Source: Sipunculus nudus (taxonomy: Eukaryota > Annelida > Sipuncula > Golfingiida > Sipunculidae). From it: a DNA stretch of 64,000 nucleotides. The notes under the pieces are model-generated. The model saw only the letters and a list, made by a program, of their open reading frames with translations, was not told the origin of the DNA and ran no database searches. Positions within the stretch are counted from its first letter, which is position 1, and every line of letters starts with the position of its first letter. The stretch lies in assembly GCA_026874595.1 (NCBI GenBank), contig CM049309.1, positions 5,478,576-5,542,575 on the forward strand. Reading direction: 5' to 3'. Positions 1 to 61,714 of the stretch are shown here, piece after piece. The position numbers and the translations under genes were made by a program.

Positions 1-56
1 GATGGCTCACTTCTGTTGTTTTTTCTGAAACAAATAATAACCTATCGGCATTGGTC

Positions 57-80
57 TATCTATCTATCCATCTATCTATC

Positions 81-132
<52 letters not shown>
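57..132. repeat. Microsatellite (CTAT)n then (ATT)n
   Basis: A short CTAT/CCAT run passes directly into about 17 uninterrupted ATT units. Confidence 0.95.
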
Positions 133-504
133 GCACCTAAAAAAATCAGAGCAGGTGATTGTATGAAAAGTCCCTGATAAAGTTAGGAAAACCGGGGGTT
201 ATTTTCGATCAACAGATGTTGATGTTACACCATGTAAACAAAATCAGCAAAAACTATATTCTTTAATATAAATTAATATCCGATTATTGATTGAAAATAT
301 CAGACAAATTAAGCAGAATATGGATAGATCGACATTCGAAGCAACCCAAGGAGGGAAAAAAGAGAAAAAATGAAGAGAGAAAAAAAAAGACATTCGAAGC
401 AATTATTTATTCATTTGTTAGGCTATATATTGATTACTGTAATGCCCTCTGGCACTGCGCTGCACTGGCATCCTCGCGGATCAACTATGAAATAGCTTTG
501 TCAG

Positions 505-2240
505 TTTTTAGCTCAGTTGACTGTAAGTCATCTGAGCTTTAGCAATTACTCTTTGTCCGTCGTCCGTCTGTCCGTCCGTCTGTCCGTCCGTTAACCAGGC
601 ACAAATCGTATAAGGAGCTAATGGGCTCCGAAGAACCCCCCCCCCCCCCCAAATGGTAAATTAGATACAAAAGCTCAAGTATCTGAACAACTAATACATT
701 GATCCCCATGATTCTTTGCATGGATATTGATCATGGGGCGTTTCATCCGTTTCTGCTGACTGGCGGCGCCACATGTATTTTCTAAAAAATTTTTAAACGA
801 TTTTCTCTCTATTTTTGAGACTTTAAAAGAGATGGTCATCTGTAAACAGGGCACAAACTGTAACGACTGTACTTAGAATCTTGTTTTGTTACAAGCACGA
901 AGGCCCATGAAAAGTCTCCTTGGAAACCTAAAATTAGTTCTCTGTTACCCATAACATCTGAGCTATGGGGCTTGAATTACCCCCCAGAATAATGGAAAAT
1001 TTAATACAGAAGCTCAAGTATCTGAACAACGAATGCATTGATCACCATGATTCTTTGCATAGATATTGACCATGGAAAAATTCGTCAGTTTCTGTAGACT
1101 GGTTGCCCCACCTGTATTTTTTTTCTATTTATTACCATTTTTTCCCCTCTCTATTTTTAAGACCATTTAAGATGCGATCATCTGTTAACAGGGATCAAAT
1201 CCTTATTAATGGACCCTTTGTTTCTTGACATGCAGGGAGGCCCATGAAACTTCTTGGAAACCTAAAATTAGTTCTATGTTACCCATAACCTCTGAGCTAT
1301 GGGGCTTCCAACTTCTAGCTTGACATTCAGGGAGTTCCATGAAAAATGTCCCTAGAAACCTTTAATTTGGTCTCTGTTACCCATATTCTTCGAGCTAATT
1401 GGCTCAGAAGTACCCCCCCCCCCCCAGAATAATTAAAAATTTCATACAAAAGCTCCAGTATCTGAACAACTAATGCATTGATCACCATGATTCTTTGCAT
1501 GCATATTCATCAGTGTTTCATCAGGTCCTGCATTCTGGTGGCGCCACCTGAATTTTTTAGAACTTTTCGCAATTTTTCTCTATTTTTGAGACCTTTAAAG
1601 ATGCAGTCATCCATTAACAGGGCACAAATCGTAATCACTGGACCCAGGATCGTCTATCTTGACATCCAGGGAGGTCTATGAGAAATCTTCTTGAAAACCT
1701 GAAATAATTTCTGTTTCCCCTTTTGCTTTGAGCTATGGGGCTTATATATATAAATACCCCCCAGAATTATTGAAAATTTGATGCCAAAGCAGGTCACTAA
1801 TCAACCATTTGACTTGACATCTTGAAAGTTCCTCAAAAGTCCTCTTCATACTCCTAAAATAAGGTCTCTGTTAGCCATAATTTTCGAATTTGAACATATT
1901 TTTTACTCTATTTTGAGGCTTTTAAAGATGCGGTCAACAGTGCACAAATTGTTACCGTTGGTCCTAGAATCGTTTTAATTGACATCCAGGGAGGTCCGTA
2001 AAAATGTCCTTGGAAACCCGAGATTAGGTCTCTGTTACCCATATTCTCTGAGCTATGGGGCTTATAAGCACCCCCAGAATAAACGAAAATCTGATACCAA
2101 AGTGGAGAACAAATCAAAACCATTGGACCCAGAATCTTCTAACTTGACATCCTGAGAATCCCTTAAAATTTCTCCCCAGAAACCCAAAATTGGGTCACTG
2201 TGACCTACATTTTCAGAAATTTGGGTAATGTTTGAGCACC
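505..2240 (+). repeat. Dispersed repeat R1, copy a
   Basis: Head reads TTTTTAGCTCAGTTGACT followed by CTTTGTCCGTCGTCCGTC. The body repeats a diverged unit of the type 'CCTTGGAAACCTGAAATTAG..TCTGTTACCCATA..TCTGAGCTATGGGGCTT' at about 950, 1270, 1380, 1716, 1871, 2037 and 2202. Two copies of GGTGGCGCCAC-like sequence occur (about 758 and 1540). No coding potential is seen; the short ORFs here are incidental. Confidence 0.75.
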
Positions 2241-3124
2241 CTAGAAATAATGCAAAATACACACAAATTACCAGATCCCTCAGGAAAGGCTTGTTGGATT
2301 GTCATCAAATTTTGTGTGTTATGGGTCCTGATGAACTTAAGCTAATATGCATGAACGACTATGCCACCTATATTTTCTTAAATAGTTGCCTGTGCAAGGG
2401 ACATATTGTAAACCTGTCAGTTTGCTGAGCGTCATGACCCATGGGTCACTTGTTAAATATTTGCATGGGAAAGCGCCGGATTATATTTCTAGTCCAATTG
2501 TTAAACTAGAACTCGGTTGTATTCAGGGGCAGAATTCAGGTTCAGACCTTGCTCAGTATCATATATATTCACGCGCAGCTGAATGCATATTCATGACTTA
2601 GAGATTGTTGACGATGCCATTGTTCTGACACAGATAACATGATAGTTACCTCAGATACATATATCACCTGTGCCCGTTTTGATAATCATGATGAACTGGC
2701 TGAATCATGCATATATATATATATATAATTAAAGCCTTCATGTATTTGCCGGCTACAAAGACGAAGTTCAGGAGGTACCTCAACTCAAGGTGGCGATAAA
2801 AGAAGCTATATTTTTTAAATAATCTAATTGCATCGCTGTTGTGTATTATCTGGACATTCCATTTTAAGTCATATCCTCTGTATATGTAACAAGAACTCAT
2901 ATTTTAGGAGGAAAAAACAACATTTTCTCGACAAAACTGGAAAATCGGATACCCACGAGGGACTGGTCTTCAACCACTTTAACTCTGGGAACCTTACGAT
3001 CTTGAAGTTTATGCATCTGCCTTTATCGCTGGCATATTGGCTTTCTTGGAGCATAAATTGCGAGTCCAGGAAACTTTCAACCTCCAAACCACATCACCAC
3101 CTGTTCTCCTTAAAAAAGACCAAG
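2241..3124. other. Upstream region of the SLC5 gene, no gene seen
   Basis: AT-rich sequence with a short (AT)n at about 2706-2727. It must hold the promoter and 5' UTR of the SLC5 gene, but no TATA box or initiator is clear enough to place. Confidence 0.5.
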
Positions 3125-3463
3125 ATGGCGTCGCTCACCTTCGGCTGGCCTGATCATCTCCTTTTCGCCACCACGCTGGTCGTGGCGCTCGGTATTGGGG
3201 TTTTCTTTTCCCTAACCGGGGGAAAACAAAGCACCACAGGTGAATACTTGATGGGGGACCGGCAAATGAAAATAATTCCGGTGGCTCTGTCTCTTTTGGC
3301 GTCTTATGTGTCTGCAGTTACTGTTCTCGGTCACCCGGCAGAGATGTACCTGTACGGAACAATGTATGCATTGAACTGGTTTGGATGCGCAATGGGAGCC
3401 ATTCTCAGTGCTTTTCTCTGGGTGCCCCTTCTCCACCCGTTGAAGCTTACCAGTGCGAATGAG
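3125..3463 (+). CDS. SLC5 exon 1 (residues 1-113)
   Basis: Begins MASLTFGWPDHLLF and carries TM1 to about TM3 of the LeuT-type fold, including GEYLMGDRQMKIIPVALSLL and a conserved HPAEMYLYGTMY segment. Ends TSANE, then the donor gtaata in phase 0. The open frame continues upstream to about 2828 without a better start, so that part is taken as 5' UTR or upstream sequence. Confidence 0.88.
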
Positions 3464-6400
3464 GTAATATATAATCCAATTCTTATTGTCAAAGTGGCAA
3501 TTGCCTTATGGCAATCAGGTGGTTTTTTTTTCAAATATGACTTATTCGACAAAGTAAGTGTCAATCTTTAAAGTATATTACACTGTAGAACTATTGGATA
3601 TAAATGAGACAAATACACTTGGAATGCACTTGAAAGGGCAGTGGCTAAAAATAAGTAAAATTTATATATCGAGCATCATGCTTATTATTTTCCAAAAAGT
3701 TAAATTAACTATAGCTGTTACTTATTCTTATTACTTCAAACAAATATTAAGCATAGGTAAAATGTCCACACGCCAGACTGAAAAGACAAAACGGCATGTA
3801 GAGGGAAGGTTTTTGCGAGGTTTCCTAGCTCAAGGCTTTAAAAACTATACGATCATAGGTCGAGCGCCTGCCGGAAATGATATGGAAACAATCCAATGAA
3901 TGAGTCATGATGAAGAGGAAGAAAATGAGCCATATTTTTTAAGATGAACCAATGCTGATAAGGTTTTGATCGAAATGAGTTTTTGACATATTTTTATGTT
4001 CTTAAGCTTGATGACCTAGACCATGACCTTGACCAAAGTAATTCCTACAAAACTGTGGTCTGTAGAATGCAATATGTCTTGCGCAAGAAAAAGCAAGAAA
4101 TTGGGCGAAATTGAGAACAACTGACAAACAGACAGACATACTGACAAAGTGAAACATCTGAGACAACAAATGACTAATTTTGATGATGGAGAAGGTCAAG
4201 AGGAATAAAATTTGCTATAAATTTTGTAGGTAAGATTTATAGTTTTGGAGATGTTGTAATGTTTTGCGTGCAGCATCATCTAGCGGCTATTTTTTGAGAA
4301 AATGAGAAAAAAATGTTTGAGATATTAGTGTAAGACATAAGATGTACCAGTTTAAGAAGGATTCGCGGAAAACTATGGCCTGTAGAATGCTAATTGTAAG
4401 GTGCAAGAACCAGCAAGCAAGCGAAACTGAGAACAACTGGTTCACAGACAGACATACTGACACACTGACACATCGGAGATGTAGAAAGCATAGAGGAACA
4501 AAATGAGCCTAAGTATTTGAAGATAGGACTGATATTGACGAAGTTATGACCTTGACCTTAGCCTTCGACTGATATTGCCAAAAATCGAAAGGTTTTGGGG
4601 ACATTTGGTTTCTTTTTATCAACTGTGTTAGTTTGAAATCGATCGCTGCAAAACTGTGCCACGTAGAGTGAAACAGACAGACAGACAAACATCGTTACAA
4701 ACAAACTGACAAACAGACATACAGAACTGACCAACATCGAAGATTTCTGGCAAGCCATGATGTACTTCATAGCATATAAAAGTGTAAATGTGAAAAGGAA
4801 GAATTTTCCTGAAATCTTGATTTAACATAATTCATGAAATGTTTTATTCACCAAGTAACATTACTTTGACTTCATTATTACAAATAACATGATTTGTAAC
4901 ACATTTCAACAACAGATATTTTGTTCATAATGCTGATCAAAACCGGAGGAAACCATAGCAAAAGCAGAAATGTTTGGTTACTCTTATAAAACCTAACCAC
5001 GATAAAGTATTTATTAGTCTTTTATTGTAGTACCTGTACATGCGCTATCACTCCTCTGTAGTCAAGTACATGGGCAACTTTTTCGCAGTACTCGGGAGTG
5101 TAAGTACCAAAATATATTTTTCATTTAATTTCCTCGATACTTTTGGAAATAAATCAAAACATATTATTTAGACAAAACTGAAAAAAAGTATATACTAGGT
5201 TATTGTCCAACCACCACGTATTTATGGTGAAAGTGGCTTTAATGACGGCAAATTACGGAAAGTTCTTCCAGTAAAACTCCTCATGAAAACAGGTAAATGA
5301 TTTGATTTTTACTACAATATGGTTAAAACGTTCAGTCACGGAAATATTTTTTAAAGAGTTGCGTTACAAGCATGTTTGCTAGATGGCGCTGATGGAAAAA
5401 GAGTAGCTCTTTTCATCGTAACTTAATGGTTGTTATAACGTATACTGATACAGATGTCGTCTTCATAACAGCTAACTTACACCGGTATCTGCCTGTTTGG
5501 TCCTTCAACGGCAATCGAAGCAGGTATATTTTAACATATCTTGTATACTTTACAGATGAACGCTCAAACAATATCTGATATTTTTTTTTCTTATAACTCA
5601 TTATCATCATCATTTGGTCGTTGTTGTTCTTCTTCTTTTTCTCATTATTATTATTATTATTATTAGTAGTAGTAGTAGTAGTAGTAGAAGTAGTAGTAGT
5701 AGTTGTAGTTCCAGTAGTCGTATTATTATTATTATTAGTAGTAGTAGCAGTAGTAGTAGTAGTAGTAGTGGAAGTATGAGTACTTGCAGTAGTTGCAATA
5801 GGCGTAGTAACTAGGCGAAAAACTAGACATTTTTATTAATACTATTTTATTAATTAGGAATTGCTAAGAAATTGTCTTTATGGATTCACATATTGCATTA
5901 TTGTATATACGCATTTATTAACATATTTCAAACAATTTAAATCATCAGATCCTCCCATTTTGATAAGTTATATTCTTTCTTTTTCAAGTGACCGGATTTC
6001 CGGTGTGGGGATCGATCATACTCTCTGGGACCGTTGCCACCATCTATACAACCATCGTGAGTATTATAACAAATAACGTTTTTTCAAGGAATTATGCAAT
6101 CATGAAACTTTCCTTACTTAAGCTCCAATAAAACAGCTTAACCTTTATGCTCATTTATTTGCATGTATTTTTTTTTGGATCGCTGAGTATGTTAGAACTG
6201 TATTGCAGGGTGGCATGAAAGCCGTTATATGGACCGATGTGTTTCAAGCCGGAATTCTTCTTGCAGGATTGATCGCTGTTACAATACAGGTACGATATAT
6301 TATGATTTTCTAAACAGATGAGAAATGAAATTTCATTTATTAAAAAAGTAAAAATCTTTTTCGGCTAAACAAGGTTATGAAGTTTTTCTTTTGTTTGTAA

Positions 6401-22009: not shown

Positions 22010-22960
22010 GTTGCGTATTAGCATGGATGTCTGCAGCCAAATTGTGTATGTAGGTTGCGCCACCTACCACAAAATCCAGAAAGCCGTCTAGGTTGTATAC
22101 ATATGCAAAATTTAAGGCAGATAAGTCAAACCACTACATGTATATGAGTGATTTTAGCCCGTGGCAGACAAACAGATGGACGCTGTGCAAAAATGGTTGT
22201 AGGTGGCGCCACCAGTTTTGCGTATGATAAAGAGCTATGTGAGAACTATACACATGCACAACTTTGGCCCAATCGGTCAAACGGTTCCCAAGATATGAGC
22301 TTGGATGTCTGCTGCATAAACTAGAATGCAGGTGGCGCCACCTGTCATAAAACCAAGAGAGCTGTCAGGGATGTATTAACATGCAAAATTTTAGGCGGAT
22401 ATGTCAAACCACTGCCGAGATATGAGTGATTTTATCCCATGGCAGACAAACAGACGGTAGCTGTGCAAAAATGGCTGTAGGTGGCGCCACCAGTTTTGCG
22501 TATGATCAAGAACTATGTGAGATCTATACAGATGCAAAATTTTGGCCCAATCGGTCAAATGGTTCCCGAGATATGAGCTTGGATGTCTGCAGCGTAAACG
22601 TGAATGTAGGTGGCGCCACCTGTCATAAATCAGAAAAGCTATCCAGGATGTATACGCATGCCGAATTTCAGGTGAATTAGTCAAATCACTGCAGAGATAT
22701 GAGTGATTTTAACCCAAGGCAGACGAACAGATGGACACTGTGCAAACATGGTTGCAGCGGCGCCACCATTTTTTGTGTATGTTATAAAGCTCTCCAAGGG
22801 CTACATTTGTGCAAAAAAAATTTCCTGATCGGTCAAACGGTTACCGAGATATGTGGGTTTATGTGTGGAAACAGACGCACAAACGGACGCAGAGCGCAGA
22901 GGAAAGGTCAGAGGTCAAAACAAAATCGGGGCGCAGCAGTTCACATGTGACCAGAACATA
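22010..22960 (+). repeat. ~278-bp tandem array with GGTGGCGCCACC palindromes
   Basis: The phrase GGCAGACAAACAGATGG begins near 22163, 22441 and 22718, giving a period of 277-278 bp and about 3.3 copies. Each unit has two related halves, each with a GGTGGCGCCACC palindrome (about 22200, 22331, 22479, 22609, with variants at 22050 and 22757) and an AxATGAG phrase after CGGTCAAAC. The array is thus a higher-order repeat of an older unit of about 139 bp. Confidence 0.85.
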
Positions 22961-23589: not shown

Positions 23590-26473
23590 CTCGCAGCACA
23601 TAGTGAGGATCACACTCATAAGAATTGGACTTAAGTAGGATGGTTAGAAGAAGGAGAAAAACCTACTAAGTATTTTATAAATTTAGAAAAAAGAAATTAT
23701 GCAAGGAAAACAATAAACAGATTATATGTGAATGGAATTATCACTAAAAACCCAACACTAATATCACAAGAACAAGTGAATTTTTATAGAAATCTTTATG
23801 TTTCAAAATTAAAATGTGAACAAAATGTAACCAATAATGATTTTCTAAAAGGTAACCATTTAAAAATATCCGATGAAATAAAAATACAAATAGATGCCCC
23901 AATTACAGTGGATGAACTATATAACAGTTTAAAATCATTTAAAAACGGTAAATCCCCAGGCATAGACGGGTTACCAGTGGAGTTCTTTGAACAATTTTGG
24001 AATCCTTTAAAATTAGTTTTCCATAGAGCTGTTAATGATTCATTTGAAAGCAATATACTCACCTATTCCCAAAGACAGGGAATAGTGACACTTATACCAA
24101 AACATAGAAAAATCCTCTTTTATTAAAAAATTGGAGACCGATAAGTTTAATGAATACTGATTATAAAATTATCACAAAAACCATTGCTAACCGTCTAAAA
24201 TTAGCTTTACATTCAATAATCAATGAAGATCAAACAGGCTTTTTAAAAAATAGATATATCGGAGAAAATATTGTTCGAATACTGTCAATTATGGATTATT
24301 GTAAATATAAAAGAGAAGAAGCATACCTTTTAGTAATTGACTATGAAAAAGCTTTTGACAGCTTAGAGTGGGAATTTATCATTCAAGCTTTAGAATATTT
24401 CAATTTTGGTGATCAGATAATTAAATGGATTAAAACCATTTAAAAAATATTTCTAGTTCTATCATTAATAATGGTTGGTTATCATCATTCTTTAACATCT
24501 ACAGAGGAGTGAGGCAAGGTTGTCCTTTATCACCTTATTTATTTATAATCAGTGCGGAAATAATAGCAAATTACATTAGAAATCAAAAGAAGATCAAGGG
24601 TATTGAGATATGTGATCATAATTTTATTATATCGCAATATGCTGATGATACTAGTTTTACATTAAAAAATATAGAAAGTGTTAAATTTATATTACAAATA
24701 TTTTGAGCAAATATCAGGTTTAAAGGTGAATATTGAGAAAAGTCAAATTATGCCGTCTAATCACCATTTAAACAATTTAGATTAACTCGGAAATATCGGT
24801 ATTCAAATTACAGAAGGACCTTTAACAGTGTTAGGTGTAAAGATATCACAAAATATACACGATATTATAGAAATTAATTATAATACAAGGATAGAGGAAG
24901 TGAGAGAATCTTTGAAATTGTGGTCAGAAAGATTACTTACCCCATATGGAAAAACAACTTTTTTGAAGTCACAGGTTCTATCGAAATTAATATATCTTCT
25001 ATGTGTTCTCCCAACCCCTAATTCTCGAATTAAAAAATACAGTAACAAAATTGATGCGGGAATTTGTGTGGTCAAAGGGAAGAAAGAGAGTCAAATGGAT
25101 GACATCGGGTCAAAAGAAAATGAGGGAGTTAATGTAACAGATACAGATACACAAGAACAAGCTTTAAAAGACTCCTGGATTAAAAGATTAAAAGTAGGTA
25201 CAAAATTACATGTGCTTTTTACTAATGCACTAAAAGCAGATTTCATGCTTGATTGCAACCCTAAGACAAAAGATGTGATCAATGTTTTTAAATTTTAATC
25301 CAATATTTGGATTGATGTTTTAAAAGCATGGTCTAATTTTAATTATGATGAGTTCAACAAATATAATGTATTACACAAAAATATATGGTTTAACTCTCAC
25401 ATAAAAATTGACGGAAATTTTTTTGTATATAAAGATATCAAAATATCAGAGATATAATAAGAAAAGATCTAATAGGGTTCAGACTTTTAACGCATAAAGA
25501 ATTGGAAAATAAATTTCATGGGAAATGTAATTTTTTGCATTATGTTAGCTTGTTAGATGCCATTCCAAAAGACTGGAAAGGCTATTTAAAACAGTTAGAA
25601 ACTCGAGATTCCCCTAAACCCAAAATTGAGATATTAAGAAATCAGAAGAAGCCATCTAGATTTGTATACAACTATTTAATTAATATGAAATATATGAAAC
25701 CGGAAAAAATAAGTTCAACCTGGAAAGAAGAACTTGCTATAGAAGAAGAGCTGATTTTTAGAGGTTTTAAAAATATTTATAAAAATTCAAACTCGACAAA
25801 ATTAAGATATTTTCAATTTTGTTTAATGCATAGATGCTTGACTCTGAATCCATTATTGTATAGAATTGGTATTAAAGAAGATAAACATTGTACATTTTGT
25901 AAAGATGAGGAGGAAACACTTGAACATATCATATGGAAATGTTTTTTTGTAAAGAAGTTATGGTCAGATATATCTGACTCACTTAAAAAGGAAAGAATAT
26001 TAAAATTTGAGGCACTTAAATATAAAAATGTTATTTTAGGCACTTATGAAGATATAACGCTGAATGCCATTTTATTTATCGCAAAGAGATATATATACAT
26101 CACTCGGTGTGAGGAGAAAAAACCTTCCTTTAGAAATTTTAAATATTTTCTTAAAGATATAATTTATATTGAAGATCAAACAGCAAAAAGTAATGGTAAA
26201 TTACATATTCATGGAAGAAAATGGAAAAATTGTCAAAATATAATTAGTTGAGAATTCCCTAGCTATATATCTATTATATATAAAACAATAAATAGGACAC
26301 CTTTCTTGTAAGAACCAAATGTAAAATGAAGTAAAAATTATATAAAGGCACTATATATGTATATATAATGGAATTGTGTATATTTATGTAGTGTGTGTTT
26401 TCTTTTGTATGTTATTGTGTATTCTATGTATTTTGCATGTTTTTATTTGTATTTGTTAATAATAAAAAAAAAA
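23590..26473 (+). mobile_element. Tx1/L1-like non-LTR retrotransposon, 5'-truncated and decayed
   Basis: Reverse transcriptase ORF remnants lie in order on the + strand: 23638-24126 (WLEEGEKPTKYF, KSPGIDGLPVEFF), 24127-24443 (NWRPISLMNTDYKIITKTIA, QTGFLKNR, YEKAFDSLEW), 24445-24706 (RQGCPLSPYLF, catalytic SQYADDT), 24707-25298 and 25400-26251. Single-base deletions at about 24115 and 24445 and further shifts at about 24703 and 25090-25400 break the frame; the YADD residues are intact. The C-terminal part has a CxxC..H....C zinc knuckle (CTFC..LEHIIWKC) as in the Tx1 group of L1 elements. A 3' UTR of about 200 nt ends in AATA(A)n at 26461-26473. The endonuclease domain is absent. Clade assignment is from motif memory. 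Confidence 0.85.
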
Positions 26474-38338: not shown

Positions 38339-41300
38339 CAGCATCAGTATGACATTATATTATGTATAAATATTAATATTTTCAAAATAGTATCATAAGA
38401 TCAAAATTTATCTTTTTATTTTGACATTTATATCTTGACTTTTTTATAGGAAGCAAATGGCCAAATAATAGGATAACCTACAGAATAAGCAGTTACACAT
38501 CGGACATTTCTATTTCTGACGCCAGGATGCAGATAGAGAGAGCGTTAAAGGTTGGTGAAAATTTTTCTTCTTTTTACGCATGCGCGTCATCAGCTTATAA
38601 TGTGTAGCCGGTTTTAGCATGTAATGAATACATTGAAAGACTGTGAAATCAATGTTGTATATCAATCGAGAGAAGATGACCGATATGATTCCAAGTTACA
38701 TTGACAAAAAACTAGAGAATAAGGGATGACCACACCAAGAATAAACATCACTATCGATGAGGAGAATCAGTATGACTACGATATGACCACGACATAATCA
38801 ACATGATCGCTGACGGCTCTGACAAGTACCAGTGTGATTACGTATGATGACTACGACATGAACAGCATCATTATTGATGGCTCTGACAATGACCAGTATA
38901 ATCACCGATGACTATCGCAAGAATAGATATTATATTATTGGATCCCTCAGGGATCGTTATGAAAATGGGAGTTCTTCATATTAAGTAAAATTATCTTTAG
39001 ACCATTCTAGCTAAGACTTAGACCTAAGACTTCAGATTTTGTGGTTGTCTTAAAATATAGCTAAACAAAAAATTCAGGAGAAATTTATAGGCTCTAATGT
39101 TATAAAAATATCGAATTTTTTTTTTCGTAATATCTCCTAAAAAGTAGCATACCCATCTATTATACAAATACATATTGATTGGTTCTGAAATTTTAATTAT
39201 ATTCCTTGCAACTTTATAAAAGTAAACATGGCAAAAAAGATGTTGGTGATGTATTTAAAATGAATTTGAGGCACAGTCCCCACACATGCCATTGATGTAT
39301 TACATATGGGGGCCGGGTCATGTCTTAATATGAATGACCTTTGTGCAATTTTTAAGATCACATAACCAGTCCTGCTCCAACGATTTTAGTGCTGTCACAA
39401 TAATAATGACAACATTTTTCTTCTTATTATTATTATCAGTATTAGTTGATTGGTTTATAATTCTTTTTTATTTTGCTGAGCAAGAACTCACATTATCCCC
39501 GAATTAGGACATTTTTAGCTTTTTTACCGTTCGTCCATTTTTATACAGTTGTTATATACCAACAGGTTTGGAGTGACGTCACTCCCCTTGAATTCGTAGA
39601 GGTGTATTATAACCCCGACATCGATATACTGTTCGGAACTCGTGAACATGGCGACGGAAACCCCTTTGATGGCCCAGGAGGAGTGCTTGCGCATGCGTTC
39701 TTCCCGCAGTATGGTGGGGACGTACACTTTGATGACGAAGAACTTTACAAAGTTAACGGAGGTAATTAATTTATCACAAAAAATGGTACCCAGCCCCTTC
39801 GCAGGGGACAAACAAACAAACAGACAGAAACAGGTGCTAGCATAACTTTCTTTGCGGATTTTATAATATTCGAACAGATCAGTCAGGCCACTCAAACCAT
39901 TTGCTGGGGGATAAGATCTGCCAAAACAGTGTTCTGGTGATCGCATAATAAATTCCAATCACAGTTGCAACACCTGTCGGCTACGATTGACACTGAGTTT
40001 TCGGGTCCATTATATCGACAAGAAAGATCACATTTTGTTTTATCTGTAGATGCTTAACTTTAATAATCGTACCTTAAACTAAGGTATAAACCACACATCG
40101 TGAGAGAAACGTATAGAGAAATATGTTCTCCCTATTTATTGACGTGATGCTTTATCTTTTCAGATACCGATCTGTTCTGGGTGGCGGCACACGAGCTGGG
40201 ACATTCTCTTGGCCTTAGCCATTCCGAGGAAGAGAAGGCCCTGATGGCGCCATTTTACCCGGGATACATCCCTAACTTCCGGTTACATTATGACGACATC
40301 CATGGCATCCAAGCAATATACGGTAAACAAATTTCACCAGTGAGCATCATTTTGGATAAACTGCTTGGTGAATATATAGAATCAACATCACACACACACA
40401 TAAATATATATTTCAGAACACCTGACGCAGACCCCTGTGTGCTTCGAAAACTCGTGCATTAATAAACACGTTAGTCTGTCTAAAAGGCGCCATTCCTTCT
40501 CTCTACCTGCTCTTCTACTATAGACTTAAAGGGCTAAACCATATACTTACATATATATATTACCTTTGTTCAAGTTGTTAAACCTTAGCTGTCCCTTTTC
40601 TTTGTTATCATGCATAATTAGTATTTTTTAAGTAGCCTCTTACTAGTATATACTGACCTTTAGCTGTGTCTCGCATTACTCCGAATTATATTTCACTCAT
40701 AGTGATTTTTACAGGTTCCAAACAACTTGTCACAGCACCGCCGCCGCCACCGCCATCTACCAGGCCTTCAAGCACACAGCCGCCACCGCCGTCTAATCAC
40801 TGCAACATCAGACGTGTTGACGCGGTTACGTATCTGTCCACCAATGACAGGACCTACTTCTTTTCCGGTAAGCCAATAACATCACGCTAGGGGGCTGGTG
40901 AGGACGGGGAAGGGGGGGGGGGGGGGTTAAACAGGGATTACAGAACAATACAGAAAATACAGAACAAAAAATCGTGAAAATTTGGAAAAAAATACAGACT
41001 GCGTAACCAGTCTACAGGAACTGGTGAAACACTCTATGATCAATATGCAAAGAATCATGGATACTTTTCTTGGAGCCTGTTAAGAAGTTATGGAATTTAT
41101 ATATATATGCTTAACGTCATACGATTCGATAGGAATCTATTTAGGACACGTATTTTGAACATGCTCGAAAAACTACGAAGCCTATACGAAGCCAAGATAC
41201 AAGGCTAAGACTCCGTATCGGATTTCAACAAACCTGTTGCGATTTGATCCCAAGCAGCAAAGATTCCGTCCCGTATCCTGCACCGTGTCATAACGTGTTG

Positions 41301-49274: not shown

Positions 49275-49433
49275 CTGAAAGGGTTTGGTTGCCATTCCAG
49301 GATCAAAGTGCTCGATACATAAAGTAGAGCTGCTATAAGTTCATAAAAATGCATCAATGCATTCTAGGATCAAAGTGCTCGATACATAAAGTAAAGCTGC
49401 TATAAGTTCATAAAAATGCATCAATGCATTAAT

Positions 49434-49482
49434 GTCACTACCCACGGGTTTCGTGCGCACTGCGTGGCACTCATCAGGTGAC
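49434..49482 (-). ncRNA. Type I hammerhead ribozyme, family B
   Basis: Minus strand: GUCAC, core CUGAUGA, stem II GUGC..GCAC (with inner CAC/GUG), core GAA, stem III ACC-CGUG-GGU, cleavage site GUA, then GUGAC closing stem I. All invariant core positions of the hammerhead fold are present and the three stems pair. It lies in the terminal repeat of a Penelope-like element, where such ribozymes are known. Confidence 0.88.
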
Positions 49483-49598: not shown

Positions 49599-50239
49599 AG
49601 CCCCATCACACGAGAAGGAGACCTTCCGGCGACCACGGCGACCTAGTAGATCGCCGTTGGTCGCCCTTAACATCGTAAAAACCCTCCAAGTATGACTGCT
49701 ATGCCGCTCTCGCCCCGCCGACACAACGTGTGCTGACGCCGCGAGCTTCGTCAGAGCGCAGACGCAAGCACACGTCGAATCCAACTGGGCGCAGAGAGAG
49801 CGCAGTTCTGACGTCATAAGCGCAGCGGCAGCACCGTACGAAGCGTGTAAAGAGCTCACTAGGGTCACGGAGGTCTCGTTGGCTGCGGCGTTGGTGTGCT
49901 TGGGCAGCGAAGCGTAACAGATAGACCGATGCTACCATGTCTACTGGCGATCGACCTGCGCTGTCAGGAAGCTGGTACTGCGCTGCTGGGACACTGATGG
50001 CGATTAAATTCCGATCTGACTGCGCTTTAAATCCACGGCGACCCCGCGGCGGAAATTTTGTCCATGTTCAAAACTGGTCGCCACTAATGGCGTTCATGGT
50101 GACCATATGACAACCCAAGGCGACAGTATCTCGCTTCTACGAAGTTCATGAAAACTTAAGGCCAATCTGGCTGTGCTCTATGGCGATCTGCCCCAATTCG
50201 GTGATCGCAGCGAGATCGCCTTCTCGTGTGACGGGGGTG
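49599..50239. mobile_element. Harbinger-like MITE M6 nested in PLE-B
   Basis: Left end AGCCCCATCACACGAGAAGG; the right end on the other strand gives ACCCCCGTCACACGAGAAGG. TAA stands directly before the left end and within one base of the right end. The interior carries GGCGACC words and CCATGTTCAAAA, like M3 and M4. Confidence 0.85.
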
Positions 50240-50249
50240 TAAGGTGCCA

Positions 50250-50780
50250 ATCTTTTGTACGTCATGATTTGTAGCTTTTCATGTTCGCATAGGTTACACC
50301 TGTGAGTTCTGGTTGTCATAGTTGGCTTAGCGATAATAGACCATGTGATACTGTGTGAGGTGCCTTGTCGTTTGATTTTCCAAATATATTCTGATAGTTC
50401 TGTTTCTTTTTCATACTGCTCGTATTTTAAAGACTTCTTGTGGTCGGCATAGTGGCTTTTGAAAGTATTTCCTATGTTTTTCTATGTATGAGACGGTCCC
50501 GTTGTTTGTTGTAATATTAGCTTTTTAAACAACACTTGTTATTAAGCAGCCGCCGTTCATTTGACATTCTACTTTATTCCTGCAGTTATAAGCTCGCTTG
50601 AAGGGGGAGGGTTGATGGTTTTTGTAGAACTTTTCGGTTGTGCTTTCTGATGATGCTGCCCAGGTTTGGGTGATAGCTGTAGCTGACTTTTATAGTGTTT
50701 CTATCGAAGATTTTGTGAAGGGGGCTGCCGGGTGGGAAATGTTTGTCAATAAGGCGCAGGAACATTTTTCGACGTTAGTT
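50250..50780 (-). pseudogene. Penelope GIY-YIG endonuclease remnant
   Basis: Minus-strand frames give LIDKHFPPGSPLHKIFDRNT, KVSYSYHPNLGSII, YNCRNKVECQMNGGCLITSV, then after a frame shift KSHYADHKKSLKYEQYEKET, ELSEYIWKIKRQG and RCNLCEHEKLQI. These match the C-terminal linker and endonuclease of Penelope-like elements. A TAA stands where the Tyr of the GIY motif is expected (about 50534), and there are further shifts, so it is dead. Confidence 0.82.
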
Positions 50781-50796
50781 TTTATGGTAAGAAACA

Positions 50797-50823
50797 GTGC
50801 GCACGAAACCTGCAGGTAGTGAC
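50797..50823 (+). ncRNA. 3' half of a hammerhead ribozyme, family B, inverted copy
   Basis: GTGCGCAC-GAA-ACC-TGCA-GGT-A-GTGAC repeats the 3' half of the motif at 49434 in opposite orientation. The CUGAUGA half is gone. This is the inverted 5' terminal copy typical of Penelope elements. Confidence 0.75.
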
Positions 50824-50850
50824 ATTAATGCATTGATGCATTTTTATGAA

Positions 50851-52203
50851 CAAACGGGGTAAAATCAAAATTATCAAAATTATATACCTTATCAACCTGC
50901 AGCTATGCAGAAAAGAAATGCTAAACAAACTCTGTTTACAAAGCTGGATTAAAGTTTCATAAAGCACGGTTAAAAATGAAATAAAACACAATGGGTTGTC
51001 GGAAGTAAACTGTACAGATATTTATCTTTTAATTTTTATCATCATTCAAGTCATTTCTTATTATTCCATGTGATGATGATCATATGGCGAAATCAGGTAA
51101 AACGCAGGCGAGAAACATACTTGTAAAGTTCTTATTCTCTTAAACGGTGCAGTAGTATGAACGCTTCAAGTGCTAGATGTCGCAGAAGTTTCTTGTCATC
51201 TAGTAAAAGAAATTCCCGAATGTTTGGCGCTTCATCTCGCTTCTGTTCGCGAGATTTAAACGCAGTTATTCAGTGATACAGTATGTATATAACATGAGGC
51301 TGAAGTTTCAAGATTGCATAAAATTTCCAAGTTAAAGGTAAACTTTCAGAAGCATGCTTTACTTTTCATGATTATACTCTACCTTTAGATTCAGTAGTTT
51401 ACTACTGGGTGGGGTTGGGGGGGGGGGGGGGGGGGGGCAGAACGTGTCTTAAAGAGGTAGAAACTTGCAGAAGTGACTTTAGTCACAATGGCCAGGATTT
51501 ATAAAGAAAACACTATAAGCAGCAGTTCCATCCACTTTATTGAAGCCAGGACATATTTTCTCAGCGATTTCCATAAATATCAATGTCTGCCCTTTAGGGC
51601 CAAAGTATATGATAAAAATCATTCTGAGCCAAATATTTGATAAAATCAGGTTTCATTCATTCTAATGTGCTAAAACATTAAGGGAAAATAATAATTTTGA
51701 TGACACTTAGTTTTCTTCTTTAAAGGAAGGATATCAAATTTGTAGGAATGGTTTTCATTTTTTTTTGGGGGGGGGGGGGGGGGCATTCAATGTGAAATTC
51801 CAGAAAAACCTCCTGAATGACCATCTCTGCTTTGCCTAATACTTCATGTTGATACTTTCATTTTTCCGAATTGCAAATATGCAAAATTTTAAGCCATGTA
51901 TCTGCAAAAGTTTTGTAAATTTGGAGACTTTAAACAAACAAATGGGCAAGGCCCTAATTTTATGAAAAAAAGTTGCTAAAATGTTACAAGTTTACCTTTC
52001 CTACTATTCATTCTAAATGCATGAAGCCTGTAGGGGTTGTTCTACACTTTTCTGTGTCTTCGACTTCTAAGAGAGATCGAAAATATAAAATTTACAAAGT
52101 CATACTCCGGTAAAAATTATGTAAAAAGAAATAATTTAAATTCCAGCCTTACTGACCCATTGTTTCTGACCCAAACTAGATATTTCATTTAATAATTATA
52201 ATA

Positions 52204-52206: not shown

Positions 52207-52258
<52 letters not shown>

Positions 52259-52282
52259 CTCTGGAGAAAAACAACACTATTA

Positions 52283-52330
52283 ATCCACAACAGACTGTTT
52301 CACGGGGTGCGACCCGATCATCAGGTGAAT
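52283..52330 (-). ncRNA. Hammerhead ribozyme, family A, copy 1
   Basis: Minus strand: AUUCAC, CUGAUGA, U-CGGG-UCGCAC-CCCG-U, GAA, ACA-GUC-UGU, cleavage site GUU, then GUGGAU. Stem I pairs six positions with one U-G wobble. The base of stem II is U-U, not the usual G-C, so activity is not assured. Confidence 0.8.
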
Positions 52331-53004
52331 GTGGTTAGAATGAAGCTAACGGCGTGGTTTGAAAAGCCGAGACTTTACGAGATTACGAGATTATGCTTTG
52401 TGCGATTCGGGTGGGGGGGGGGGGGGCATGTGAAAGACTGACACTGATCCTATTGTCCTCGGGTGCACAATAGGATTGGTCGGGGTACACGTGCGATACT
52501 GGAACATAACAGGGCAGGGCAACGAGGTTATTTAAGTTGCAAAATTTATATGTAATACAAAGATAATTACCAGGAGGCTCAAATAGCATAATGAACTGAT
52601 TTCTAAAGGGTCTTGGAAGCAGTGAACATATCAGAGGTATACATATGATATGATAAAAATATGATATGATAAAAATACACATATACTATGAAAATACACA
52701 ATATACAAGGCAAATGTACAAATATAAAATATAAAAGACAAATATACTATACTATACTCATACTAAATGCAATCCACTCGGTAAACTTACCATGATGTAG
52801 TGGTAACGCCATGTCCCTCATCACTGCAGAGCAGTGAGAGAACAACTACCTGAACAGGTAAGTCTGCCCAGCGGATCCTCGGGGGGGGGGGGGGGGTGAT
52901 TGGATTGCGTGGATACCTTCTACTCCAGCTCCAGCGACAGGTACGTTGTCGAGCACTTTTGTTAACCCACCCTGTCCAGAAATTCAAATTATAACATCTA
53001 CAGA

Positions 53005-53769
53005 ATGAACAAAGCTAACTTCAACTACTCTTTGAAAAACATTCCCATCCCTAGTAATCTGTCCTACACCAAATCCCTGATAAGTAAAGTTGAAAGCCTA
53101 CTTCGGAGAATGCGATGGAAGGCATTCCATTTCGAAAACCCTGGTCAAACTTCAGATAAACTTAACTATGGATTCAAAACCACATTTTCACCCCCTCATA
53201 GCGAACACCTCAGGGCATTTGAAAGTGATATCTATGAAATGGTACGGAACATTGAATTTCAGCACTCACACAATGCATTTCAGAGACAAATGGCCAATGA
53301 CATCATAACAATCAGACAATCTGACAATCTCCTAGTACAGGCAGATAAGACCGCCAACCTGTACAGTATGCCGAAAGAACATTACAATAAACTTCTTACA
53401 GAAAACATCACTAAGACATACAAAAAAGCAGACAAAAATATCTGTAAAAATATCAATACAGAAGCCAAAGAATTAGCCGGGTCCCTTAACCTAGCAGACC
53501 GCATCGAACTTATGGCCGAGCGCAATGCTTACATTACTTTGAGAGACCACAAGGATAATTTTGAACTAAACCCCAAGTGCAGATTGATTAATCCAGCTAA
53601 ATCTGAAATAGGTATCATTAGCAAAAAGCACTTGGAAAAAATTAATAGCCAACTGAGACTGAAAACCAAACTCAACCAGTGGCAAAATACCGCACAGGTA
53701 ATATCTTGGTTCAAGAAATTGAAACTGAAGATCGGGTCGCACCCCGTGAAACAGTCTGTTGTGAATTAA
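53005..53769 (+). pseudogene. Penelope-like RT, N-terminal part, truncated by deletion
   Basis: The 254-codon frame starts MNKANFNYSLKNIPIPSNLS and continues with LRRMRWKAFHFE, NYGFKTTFSPP, RQSDNLLVQADKTANLYSMP, TKTYKKADKNI, RIELMAERNAYITLRDHKDN and KCRLINPAKSEIGIISKKHL. These are the conserved N-terminal blocks of Penelope reverse transcriptases. After NTAQVISWFKKL, where the catalytic palm should follow, it runs into hammerhead sequence (KIGSHPVKQSVVN stop). The catalytic Asp residues are therefore missing. No stops before the junction, so the deletion is younger than most decay here. Confidence 0.88.
53725..53766 (+). ncRNA. Hammerhead remnant fused to PLE-A ORF, family A, plus strand
   Basis: CUGAAGA, stem II CGGG/CCCG, GAA, ACA-GUC-UGU, GUU and GUGAAU are present. 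The 5' strand of stem I is replaced by ORF sequence (UUGAAA), which cannot pair with GUGAAU. Position 7 (U to A) is tolerated in hammerheads, but the missing stem I should inactivate it. Confidence 0.78.
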
Positions 53770-53848
53770 TAGTGTTGTTTTTCTCCAGAGTTATACCGCT
53801 CTGGCCTAGTCTGTAGGCCATAGAGCACTTTACATCGGAGGGTAACAC

Positions 53849-53853
<5 letters not shown>

Positions 53854-53894
<41 letters not shown>

Positions 53895-54056
53895 CTCTGA
53901 AGAAAAACAACACTGTAAATTCACAACAGTCTGTTTCACGGGATGCGACCCGATCATCAGGTGAATATGGTTAGAATGAAGCTAACGGCGTGGTTTGAAA
54001 AGCCGACACTTAACGAGATTACGAGATTATGCTTTGTGCGGGGCGGGAGGGGGCAT
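53854..54056 (-). mobile_element. Solo Penelope 3' terminus, family A, minus strand
   Basis: From (TA)n through AACTCTGAAGAAAAACAAC, the hammerhead, and GCTAACGGCGTGGTTTGAAA to a GCGGGGCGGGAGGGGG end. It repeats 52258-52430 at high identity and in the same orientation. It meets PLE-A tail to tail at the shared (TA)n. Confidence 0.8.
53919..53966 (-). ncRNA. Hammerhead ribozyme, family A, copy 2
   Basis: Minus strand: AUUCAC, CUGAUGA, U-CGGG-UCGCAU-CCCG-U, GAA, ACA-GAC-UGU, cleavage site GUU, GUGAAU. Stem I is now fully paired (AUUCAC/GUGAAU), where copy 1 had a wobble. Loop bases differ between copies while stems are kept. Confidence 0.82.
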
Positions 54057-59808: not shown

Positions 59809-61714
59809 ATACAATTTCATGGAAATCTACTCCCTATGCCTGACCCAGAAAAAACGGATATTAATTACCAAAAGCTTGACGAAAGAGATACGTTTTTTAA
59901 ATTAGTTTTAAATGATACAAGAGTTGGAGATTTTCTAAGTGTAATGGGAAGTGAATTCCAAATTTTTGTGGCTATGAAACGGAAGGAACGTTCACCAATT
60001 TTCATATTACACTTTGGTACTTTAAGAAGATTCCCGCCAGCCGAGCGCAGCGTACGCAAAGGCCGATAGGTTATTATTTTTTTTCAGTCAAATATGATGG
60101 AAGTAAGTCATCGAAATGGCGGTAAACAAAAACAGCATTTTTTTATTGTATACGGTACTTGACGGGAAGCCAATGGAGCTGTTTGAGCAGCGGGTTGACG
60201 TGGTCGGCCTTACGCTTCTTAAGAATGAGACGCGCCGCATTATTCTGGACCATCTGTAGCCGGTAGACTTGCTCTGCAGGTAACCCAGCAAGAACTGAAT
60301 TACAATAATCCAGGCGAGATATTACTGTGGCGCAAATGAGCCGACAGCACGCATTAATAAAGAGGAAACGCCGGATTTAAGCTATTCGGCGGAGCTCGAG
60401 AAAGGCCGCAAGACATATACTACTAATATAATCATGCATTGAAAGATTATGATCAATCTTAACACCTAGATACTTCACTGAATTTTGAAAAGGAACAGTG
60501 CAGCCCCCAATGCTAATAGACTCACTGTCAGTCATCCTTAGAAGGGGTTTAGATCCGACAGGCATAATTTCAGTCTTGTCAGTATTCAATTTAAGTTTGT
60601 TGCTGGTCATCCATGATAGTATATCATCGATACAAGCTTGTATGCTTAACTGGACACAGCTGAACTCACCTGGTTTACTACTTTTTGACAGTTCAGTGTC
60701 ATCAGCATACTTGTGAAAAGAACAATCATGTGCAGATATTATGCGAGATAGGGGTTGTGAATATAAAGTGAACAATATAGGTCCTAACACGGATCCCTGG
60801 GGAACCCCGTACAACAAAGTACATGGGTCAGATTTCCTACCGTCGACAATACCATCTTGGGAACGATTGGCGAGTTATGAAGTATCAAGCGTGTCAAACG
60901 CTGCACTGAGGTCCAACAATGCTAGGAGAGAAACGCGTCTCCCATCTGCCGCCATTAGCAGACCATCCATGACACTCAGTACGGCGGTCTATGGTGCCTT
61001 CTATTCGTGGACTGATGGATTTCCATTAAGCTATTTTCATGAAGATGACATTGTAACCTCTTTAAAACAATCTTCTCAGGGATTTTAGAAAGGAAGGGAA
61101 GGTTTAAAACTGGCCCAAAGTGTTAAGTTCATTTCAATCTAATCCCGGCTTCTTCAAAAGTGGGGTCACGACAGCCTCTTTAAACTTAGAAGGGACTGTA
61201 CCTGTTGATAGAGAGACATTAATAATGAACGTAATCAATGGAGTTAGGTCATCTATGCATTGCTTAAGAAGGGGATTTGGGAAGGGATCAAGTATACAGC
61301 TTTTTGTTGGTGATGATGATGATTTTAGATTTTGGACAAATCCCCACACTTAATACATTACATGAAGAAAATATCTTGCATCAAGCTTTAGCTGATTTTC
61401 GGCAAATTATCAGAAGATCAATATGTTTCACCTGTGAGAATCTAGCCATACCAAGAAGCTATAGGTGTAAATTTTGAGTGTGCTTTAGTAAGAAAAGTGC
61501 TTTATATTCACCGTATATGCAGTGTAAAGACCGATTATGTGTTTCGGTTTGTTTACTCCTTTTAGCCACAAAAGGATCAAAACAAGTGTTGAACCAGTTA
61601 CTACACGCTTTGTGATTGGCTGACTGATCCTCTGAGATTCAGTGTGTTAAACCCAGATTATTTTCTACTTCAAGTAACAACATAACATACATGACTGAGT
61701 CAGCTGTGAGTCCG

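Follow-up and report, generated by a model that had tools for sequence, protein, structure and literature searches.

Minimal type I hammerhead ribozymes have been described in Penelope-like elements since 2014 (cited in PMC6155905, PMC7761336, and PMC11167929), where helix III is often missing or weak (PMC6155905, PMC7761336). Papers citing the primary descriptions (those of Cervera and De la Pena 2014 and Lunse et al. 2017) place them in the terminal repeats and report their action as double hammerheads (PMC6466107; PMC7761336). Their role in these elements is called unknown (PMC7761336), and in one case insertion in vitro did not need hammerhead cleavage (PMC11167929).

Besides these, three systems are closest to the locus described here. 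The typical Penelope structure, as found in Adineta vaga, includes inverted pLTRs and a 31-bp tail, with inverted terminal repeats around truncated copies, head-to-head joins, and a microhomology-mediated deletion (PMC3846280). In the Poseidon element of Anolis carolinensis, the PAc hammerhead lies near the junction of the pLTR and the ORF, the targets are AT-rich, and the tail is set by an internal start of reverse transcription; the purified protein cuts and extends both target strands, starts internally on the RNA, and prefers AT-rich DNA (PMC11167929). In the axolotl retrozyme hammerhead HHR_Amex2, stem II begins with a U U mismatch and stem III is weak; the motif cleaves better in dimeric constructs, and is reported to have a loop 1-loop 2 contact that is likely less stable (PMC7229834).

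The 64-kb stretch of Sipunculus nudus DNA analyzed here (the window) carries motifs that very probably are the hammerheads of Penelope-like elements, a degree of confidence which applies to their identification and not to the activity of these particular copies. The loci are best explained as decayed copies of two Penelope-like retroelement families. As the combination of element and ribozyme is already known in other animals, the window is an ordinary further example of it. These families are set apart from the published ones by their description, rather than by a comparison of sequences: they have a three-pair stem III, whereas many of the published motifs are said to be without helix III, one family has U.U where stem II begins, and the partial inverted copies break off within the hammerhead.

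Two families of hammerhead motifs

The first family is represented by two complete motifs on the minus strand, hammerhead A (52283..52330) and its homologue B (53919..53966), both of which match a descriptor of the minimal type I form. Read from 52330 to 52283, A is ATTCAC-CTGATGA-T-CGGG-TCGCAC-CCCG-T-GAA-ACA-GTC-TGT-T-GTGGAT, while B, read from 53966 to 53919, is the same except for TCGCAT, GAC, and GTGAAT. Both comprise a 6-bp stem I, the CUGAUGA box, a U.U apposition, a CGGG/CCCG stem II, GAA, and an ACA/UGU stem III, and in both the cleavage position is a U (GUU). The cuts are predicted after U17, between 52289 and 52288 in A, and between 53925 and 53924 in B.

A second family, which was absent from the first-pass annotation, is independent of A and B and has a more standard form. 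Its complete motif, hammerhead C (49434..49482, minus strand), reads GTCAC-CTGATGA-GTGC-CACGCAGTGC-GCAC-GAA-ACCCGTGGGT-A-GTGAC from 49482 to 49434, closes the base of stem II with G-C, and has a predicted cut after A17, between 49439 and 49438. It was recovered by the descriptor and by a weak Rfam match. All three motifs contain the type I core, CUGANGA ... GAA with A15.1-U16.1 and H17, and form three stems with the open end at stem I.

Only 3 of the 48 positions differ between A and B, with one change in loop II (C/U), one in loop III (U/A), and one in stem I, where U.G becomes U-A. The hammerhead stays valid after these three differences, as it does after 4-9% of random triple substitutions. 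The first-pass annotation had given the coordinates of the two minus-strand copies, the GUU cleavage site, and the loop variants, all of which are borne out by the reading of the sequence, including the formation of the claimed pairs in both A and B. It had also proposed that the stem I change restores pairing, which is too strong, given that a compensatory change is ruled out: there is a single change, on one side, of a pair that forms in both copies. The U-U at the base of stem II and the three-pair stem III, which had been considered unusual, both have published precedents in PMC7229834 (the former) and in PMC6155905 and PMC7761336 (the latter). For A and B, the U.U may mean a weaker hammerhead.

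A third copy had been claimed on the plus strand at 53725..53766, where the complete set of three stems is absent. This copy is truncated. It keeps CTGAAGA, stem II, GAA, and stem III, and it has no stem I, given that its 5' flank, GAAATTGAAA, lies inside the ORF and cannot pair as one. It fails both the strict and the loose descriptors, the latter allowing a 3-bp stem I and two G.U pairs, and was rejected as a hammerhead, which leaves A and B as the two valid copies of the three. The CTGAAGA lies directly 3' of the coding sequence to which the copy is fused, and the CTGAAG at the junction is a 6/7 match which would look alike whether the ORF or the hammerhead was its source.

Terminal repeats, inverted copies, and tails

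Hammerheads A and B belong to one family, since both lie within a 200-nt direct repeat (52218..52417 and 53854..54053, minus strand) whose copies differ at 13/200 positions. Each copy is a terminal, pLTR-like block that abuts an array, (AT)n in the case of A and (TA)n in the case of B, and each hammerhead sits within a block of approximately 160 nt bounded by a C-rich run and the (AT)n. The truncated copy opens the plus-strand arm of an inverted repeat, 71 nt long, of part of A, in which the arm that runs from the core of A to the tail (52254..52324, minus strand) is 97% complementary to the other (53725..53795, plus strand). A search of the window for further tails or terminal blocks of this family, allowing up to 3 mismatches, recovered only the known ones. 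Long runs of poly-G are found around the element at 51417-51437, 51767-51783, 52413-52426, and 52881-52896, one of which adjoins the terminal block of A.

The second family has a similar arrangement, with a partial inverted copy of C plus its tail (50795..50851, plus strand, 57 nt), which starts inside loop II, lies at the opposite end of the decayed element copy from C, and has 3 differences from it. All three fall in the stem III decamer, where ACCCGTGGGT becomes ACCTGCAGGT, and include one C-G to U-A double change. In simulations, three random changes all land in this decamer with a probability of 0.004, and 5% of the triple changes within it retain self-complementarity. The conservation of stem III pairing between C and its inverted copy is only suggestive, however, because the parts also stay intact in 28% of simulations with three random changes placed anywhere along the 57-nt block, and the case was picked after the fact.

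Head-to-head inverted element parts with unequal arms are thus found in both families, and also in a third locus, the homologous contig discussed below. The window thus shows the arrangement by which Penelope elements are defined (PMC3846280), with pLTRs, inverted or direct, and a short tail. There are also differences from the A. vaga elements, in which the inverted pLTR of Pen2a measures 181/218 bp, and the word "ribozyme" occurs 0 times in the portion of that source covered here. Between the cleavage site and the point where the shared block stops there are 35 nt in the first family and 33 nt in the second. With PAc, by contrast, cleavage falls 26 bp inside the ORF, and reverse transcription begins 111-118 bp inside it (PMC11167929).

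The window has five tail ends, of which those of A and B directly abut (AT)n arrays; TA-type arrays number 10 in the window. Past the tail ends of C and its inverted copy, the next 23-24 nt are 71% and 74% AT, and past 53795 the sequence over such a span is GC-rich, with 35% AT. A 67-nt tandem repeat of 2.1 copies at 49293-49430 consists of the element tail and its flank.

A probable Penelope-like protein

The fragment of an ORF at 53005..53724 (plus strand), to which A and B are antisense, probably encodes the N-terminal part of a Penelope-like protein and runs into the truncated hammerhead. It had no informative match in Pfam, NCBIfam, or the PDB. In a collection of prokaryotic genomes, 69 stretches matched a peptide pattern, of which 1 encoded a relative, contig JAAEPJ010000379.1 (L001). 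The match holds with the window protein alone, which is identical at 116/236 aligned positions (49%) to L001:1494-2870. The contig is filed as part of a bacterial MAG, and most likely represents eukaryotic contamination.

The frame of L001 that is homologous to the window ORF extends into FDIENFYPSI and YRDDG, while the overlapping next frame contains DYIGLTEGTFKKRF and RCDLCLTEKL, and an inverted copy on the minus strand has all these motifs, YRDDG and DYIG included, in a single frame of 554 aa. We take these motifs to be those of the reverse transcriptase and of the GIY-YIG endonuclease found in Penelope-like proteins. Comparison of the L001 protein with PHROGs gave weak matches to a polymerase (E 0.00095) and an endonuclease (E 0.15), and there was no useful match in Pfam, NCBIfam, or the PDB; its predicted structure, with a mean pLDDT of 32.9, was left aside. 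The search for relatives in viral contigs returned no relative or match, and tblastn gave no match either for the window ORF in plasmids or for the L001 protein in plasmids and phages. Positions 1-3787 of the contig carry a head-to-head Penelope-like element with inverted arms of 756 and 599 nt.

On the coding strand of L001, 124 nt past the stop codon, there is CTGACGA-GTGC-GTAA-GCAC-GAAACTC, followed by the end of the contig, which cuts the motif. The four stem II pairs of this terminal core are identical to those of C, and the core is in sense to the coding sequence, as is the truncated plus-strand copy in the window. The link between the hammerheads and a Penelope-like element that the first-pass annotation had drawn is upheld for A and B, given the match to the descriptor and the homologous contig that ends in a hammerhead core.

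In the second family, hammerhead C is located 667 nt downstream of an ORF fragment on the same strand (50149..50481, minus), which appears to correspond to the endonuclease region of a decayed Penelope-like protein, with 28/69 aligned residues (41%) identical to L001:2837-3634 (E 2e-16 in a single comparison). A second fragment of the same decayed copy (50589..50762, minus strand), from between the reverse transcriptase and the endonuclease, is identical to the same region at 28/54 aligned residues (52%). The protein is present in the window only as fragments, and its identity is drawn from one MAG contig and from sequence motifs.

Descriptor matches and covariance models

The type I descriptor, whose strict and loose versions were both written after the motif had been seen, specifies CTGANGA, GAAA, A15.1-U16.1, H17, and three stems, with a mismatch tolerated at 10.1-11.1. 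Both versions recover 3 matches in the 64-kb window, that is, A, B, and C, and no others, while 400 dinucleotide-preserving shuffles gave a mean of 0.0025 (strict) and 0.025 (loose) matches, with a maximum of 1. As A and B are homologous, there are only two independent matches, the first family and C. A still looser descriptor added one plus-strand match (24639-24692), which is AT-rich and implausible, and had no matches in the reversed or complemented window. The bare pattern CTGANGA-N8-30-GAAA proves little, since it occurs 10 times in the window against 2.83 expected.

A covariance search of the whole window with 4227 Rfam families, a search whose failure to give a significant hit the first-pass annotation had listed among the refuting outcomes, gave no match of any family at the gathering score. 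There was no hammerhead match at A or B at E values up to 10, and none in L001, whose motif is truncated by the contig end. Hammerhead_1 scored 17.3 bits at C, against a gathering score of 34 (E 0.11 in a search of 181 bases). The test is thus insensitive here, as C, for all its more standard form, likewise falls short of gathering; the threshold of RF00163, which is curated and not a property of the RNA, is probably insensitive to minimal forms. A further 16 sub-gathering rows (miRNA, snoRNA, pestivirus UTR, and others) were discarded, none of them being a hammerhead, and 13 of the 16 sit on the inverted repeat or on (TA)n arrays.

Folding and possible dimerization

Stem III has three pairs and a loop of three or four nucleotides in A, B, and C, and is weak on its own. 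The segment is nearly self-complementary: counting G.U, it is self-complementary at 8/9 positions in A and B, ACAG(U/A)CUGU, and at 10/10 in C and its inverted copy (ACCCGUGGGU and ACCUGCAGGU), a level reached by approximately 5% of the A...T words in the window. In a heterodimer of A and B, stem III would extend to a full nine pairs.

Folded as single strands, the sequences do not favor the hammerhead, with z scores against shuffles of +0.52 for A, -0.42 for B, and -0.24 for C (the 3' end of which was cut by 2 nt). The homodimer energies are equally unexceptional, with 219 (A), 84 (B), and 65 (C) of the 300 shuffles folding at least as well. The calculated energies of the double hammerhead are -24.1 (AA), -24.9 (BB), and -29.2 kcal/mol (AB), and the minimum-energy two-strand folds, at -27.3, -29.5, and -32.0, respectively, differ from it; only in C does the minimum-energy fold contain every double-hammerhead helix. 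Dimer action is thus argued mainly from precedent, because neither the monomer nor the homodimer energies convincingly beat the shuffles. The three motifs are best read as minimal, probably dimer-type hammerheads of Penelope-like elements. HHR_Amex2 shares the U U at the base of stem II (with the first family) and the weak stem III, and differs in lying in 350-bp tandem repeats and in having a two-pair stem III with a tetraloop (PMC7229834). In a long minus-strand transcript of the A/B locus, the inverted copy could mask the hammerhead.

Origin and activity of the motifs

The notion that the motifs are chance matches draws on the fitting of the descriptor to a motif already seen, the lack of an Rfam match at the gathering score, and the frequency of the bare core pattern, and is hardly credible in the face of three matches in two sequence families where 0.0025-0.025 are expected per window. 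Both families, moreover, lie in remnants of one type of protein, and the one homologous contig found also ends in a hammerhead core. It is somewhat more conceivable, while still quite improbable, that A and B are parts of a small non-autonomous repeat, resembling a retrozyme and bearing a type I hammerhead, which happens to lie beside an unrelated ORF. Animal retrozymes have type I hammerheads and RNAs of 170-400 nt (PMC7229834), which would suit the blocks of about 160 nt between the C-rich run and the (AT)n, but the small, tandem, ORF-less units typical of them are not found at the A/B locus, and there are no tandem units of about 160 nt in the window. The 71-nt inverted copy is fused to the ORF itself, and in L001 the homologous ORF is likewise followed by a hammerhead core.

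A far more serious contender, to which we give somewhat less than even credence, is that the motifs are inherited relics, once-working hammerheads whose copies are now inactive and whose pairing is no longer maintained. This is compatible with the identification of the motifs as Penelope hammerheads, and competes only with their present activity. The element copies are truncated or decayed, the divergence between the two hammerheads (3/48) is close to that of the whole 200-nt repeat (13/200), and the U.U that stem II has at its base and the unremarkable folding energies point in the same direction. Pulling the other way, the three changes between A and B spare the core bases and break no pair (P ~0.04-0.09), and stem III of C and its inverted copy stays self-complementary through three changes (P ~0.004 for their place and 0.05 for the pairing, both post hoc).

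If the loci are copies of two Penelope-like families, as preferred here, the elements of each family would bear, close to their 3' end, a hammerhead of the minimal type I form and then a tail of approximately 33-35 nt. Two hammerheads in the element transcripts would pair through the nearly self-complementary stem III and cleave, which would trim longer transcripts. Insertion would start with reverse transcription from the tail on both target strands, and this two-strand priming could leave copies head to head, with arms of different lengths and the 5' part of the hammerhead missing from one. The sequence itself shows the motifs, their link to the protein of the element, the inverted structure, and the shared tail ends, from which cleavage, dimerization, priming on both strands, and any part that cleavage plays for the element are inferred.

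A more elaborate scenario, which seems unlikely, combines three propositions: that the hammerhead persists in these families as an obligate dimer switch, with stem III drifting only in ways that preserve its self-complementarity; that the folded hammerhead stalls reverse transcription on one target-primed strand, so that insertions end inside the ribozyme; and that the templates are uncleaved or religated. The last of these is argued for by the two truncated copies, which both extend beyond the cleavage site on its 5' side and have their ends within the hammerhead, as stalling perhaps would also have it; with two cases, it is a lead and no more. Loci in which complete and truncated hammerhead copies are paired can record whether insertion used cleaved RNA.

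Other features of the window

Several other ORFs in the window were judged by eye. Fragments of ORFs at 23635-26251 (plus strand) and 60377-60874 (minus strand) are like non-LTR (LINE-type) reverse transcriptases, while an ORF at 40148-40462 (plus strand) contains 11 residues that resemble the zinc site of a matrix metalloprotease, suggestive of an animal genome, and another at 2828-3571 (plus strand) is like the start of a sodium-coupled solute transporter. A tandem repeat with a period of 278 and 2.8 copies occupies positions 22016-22781.
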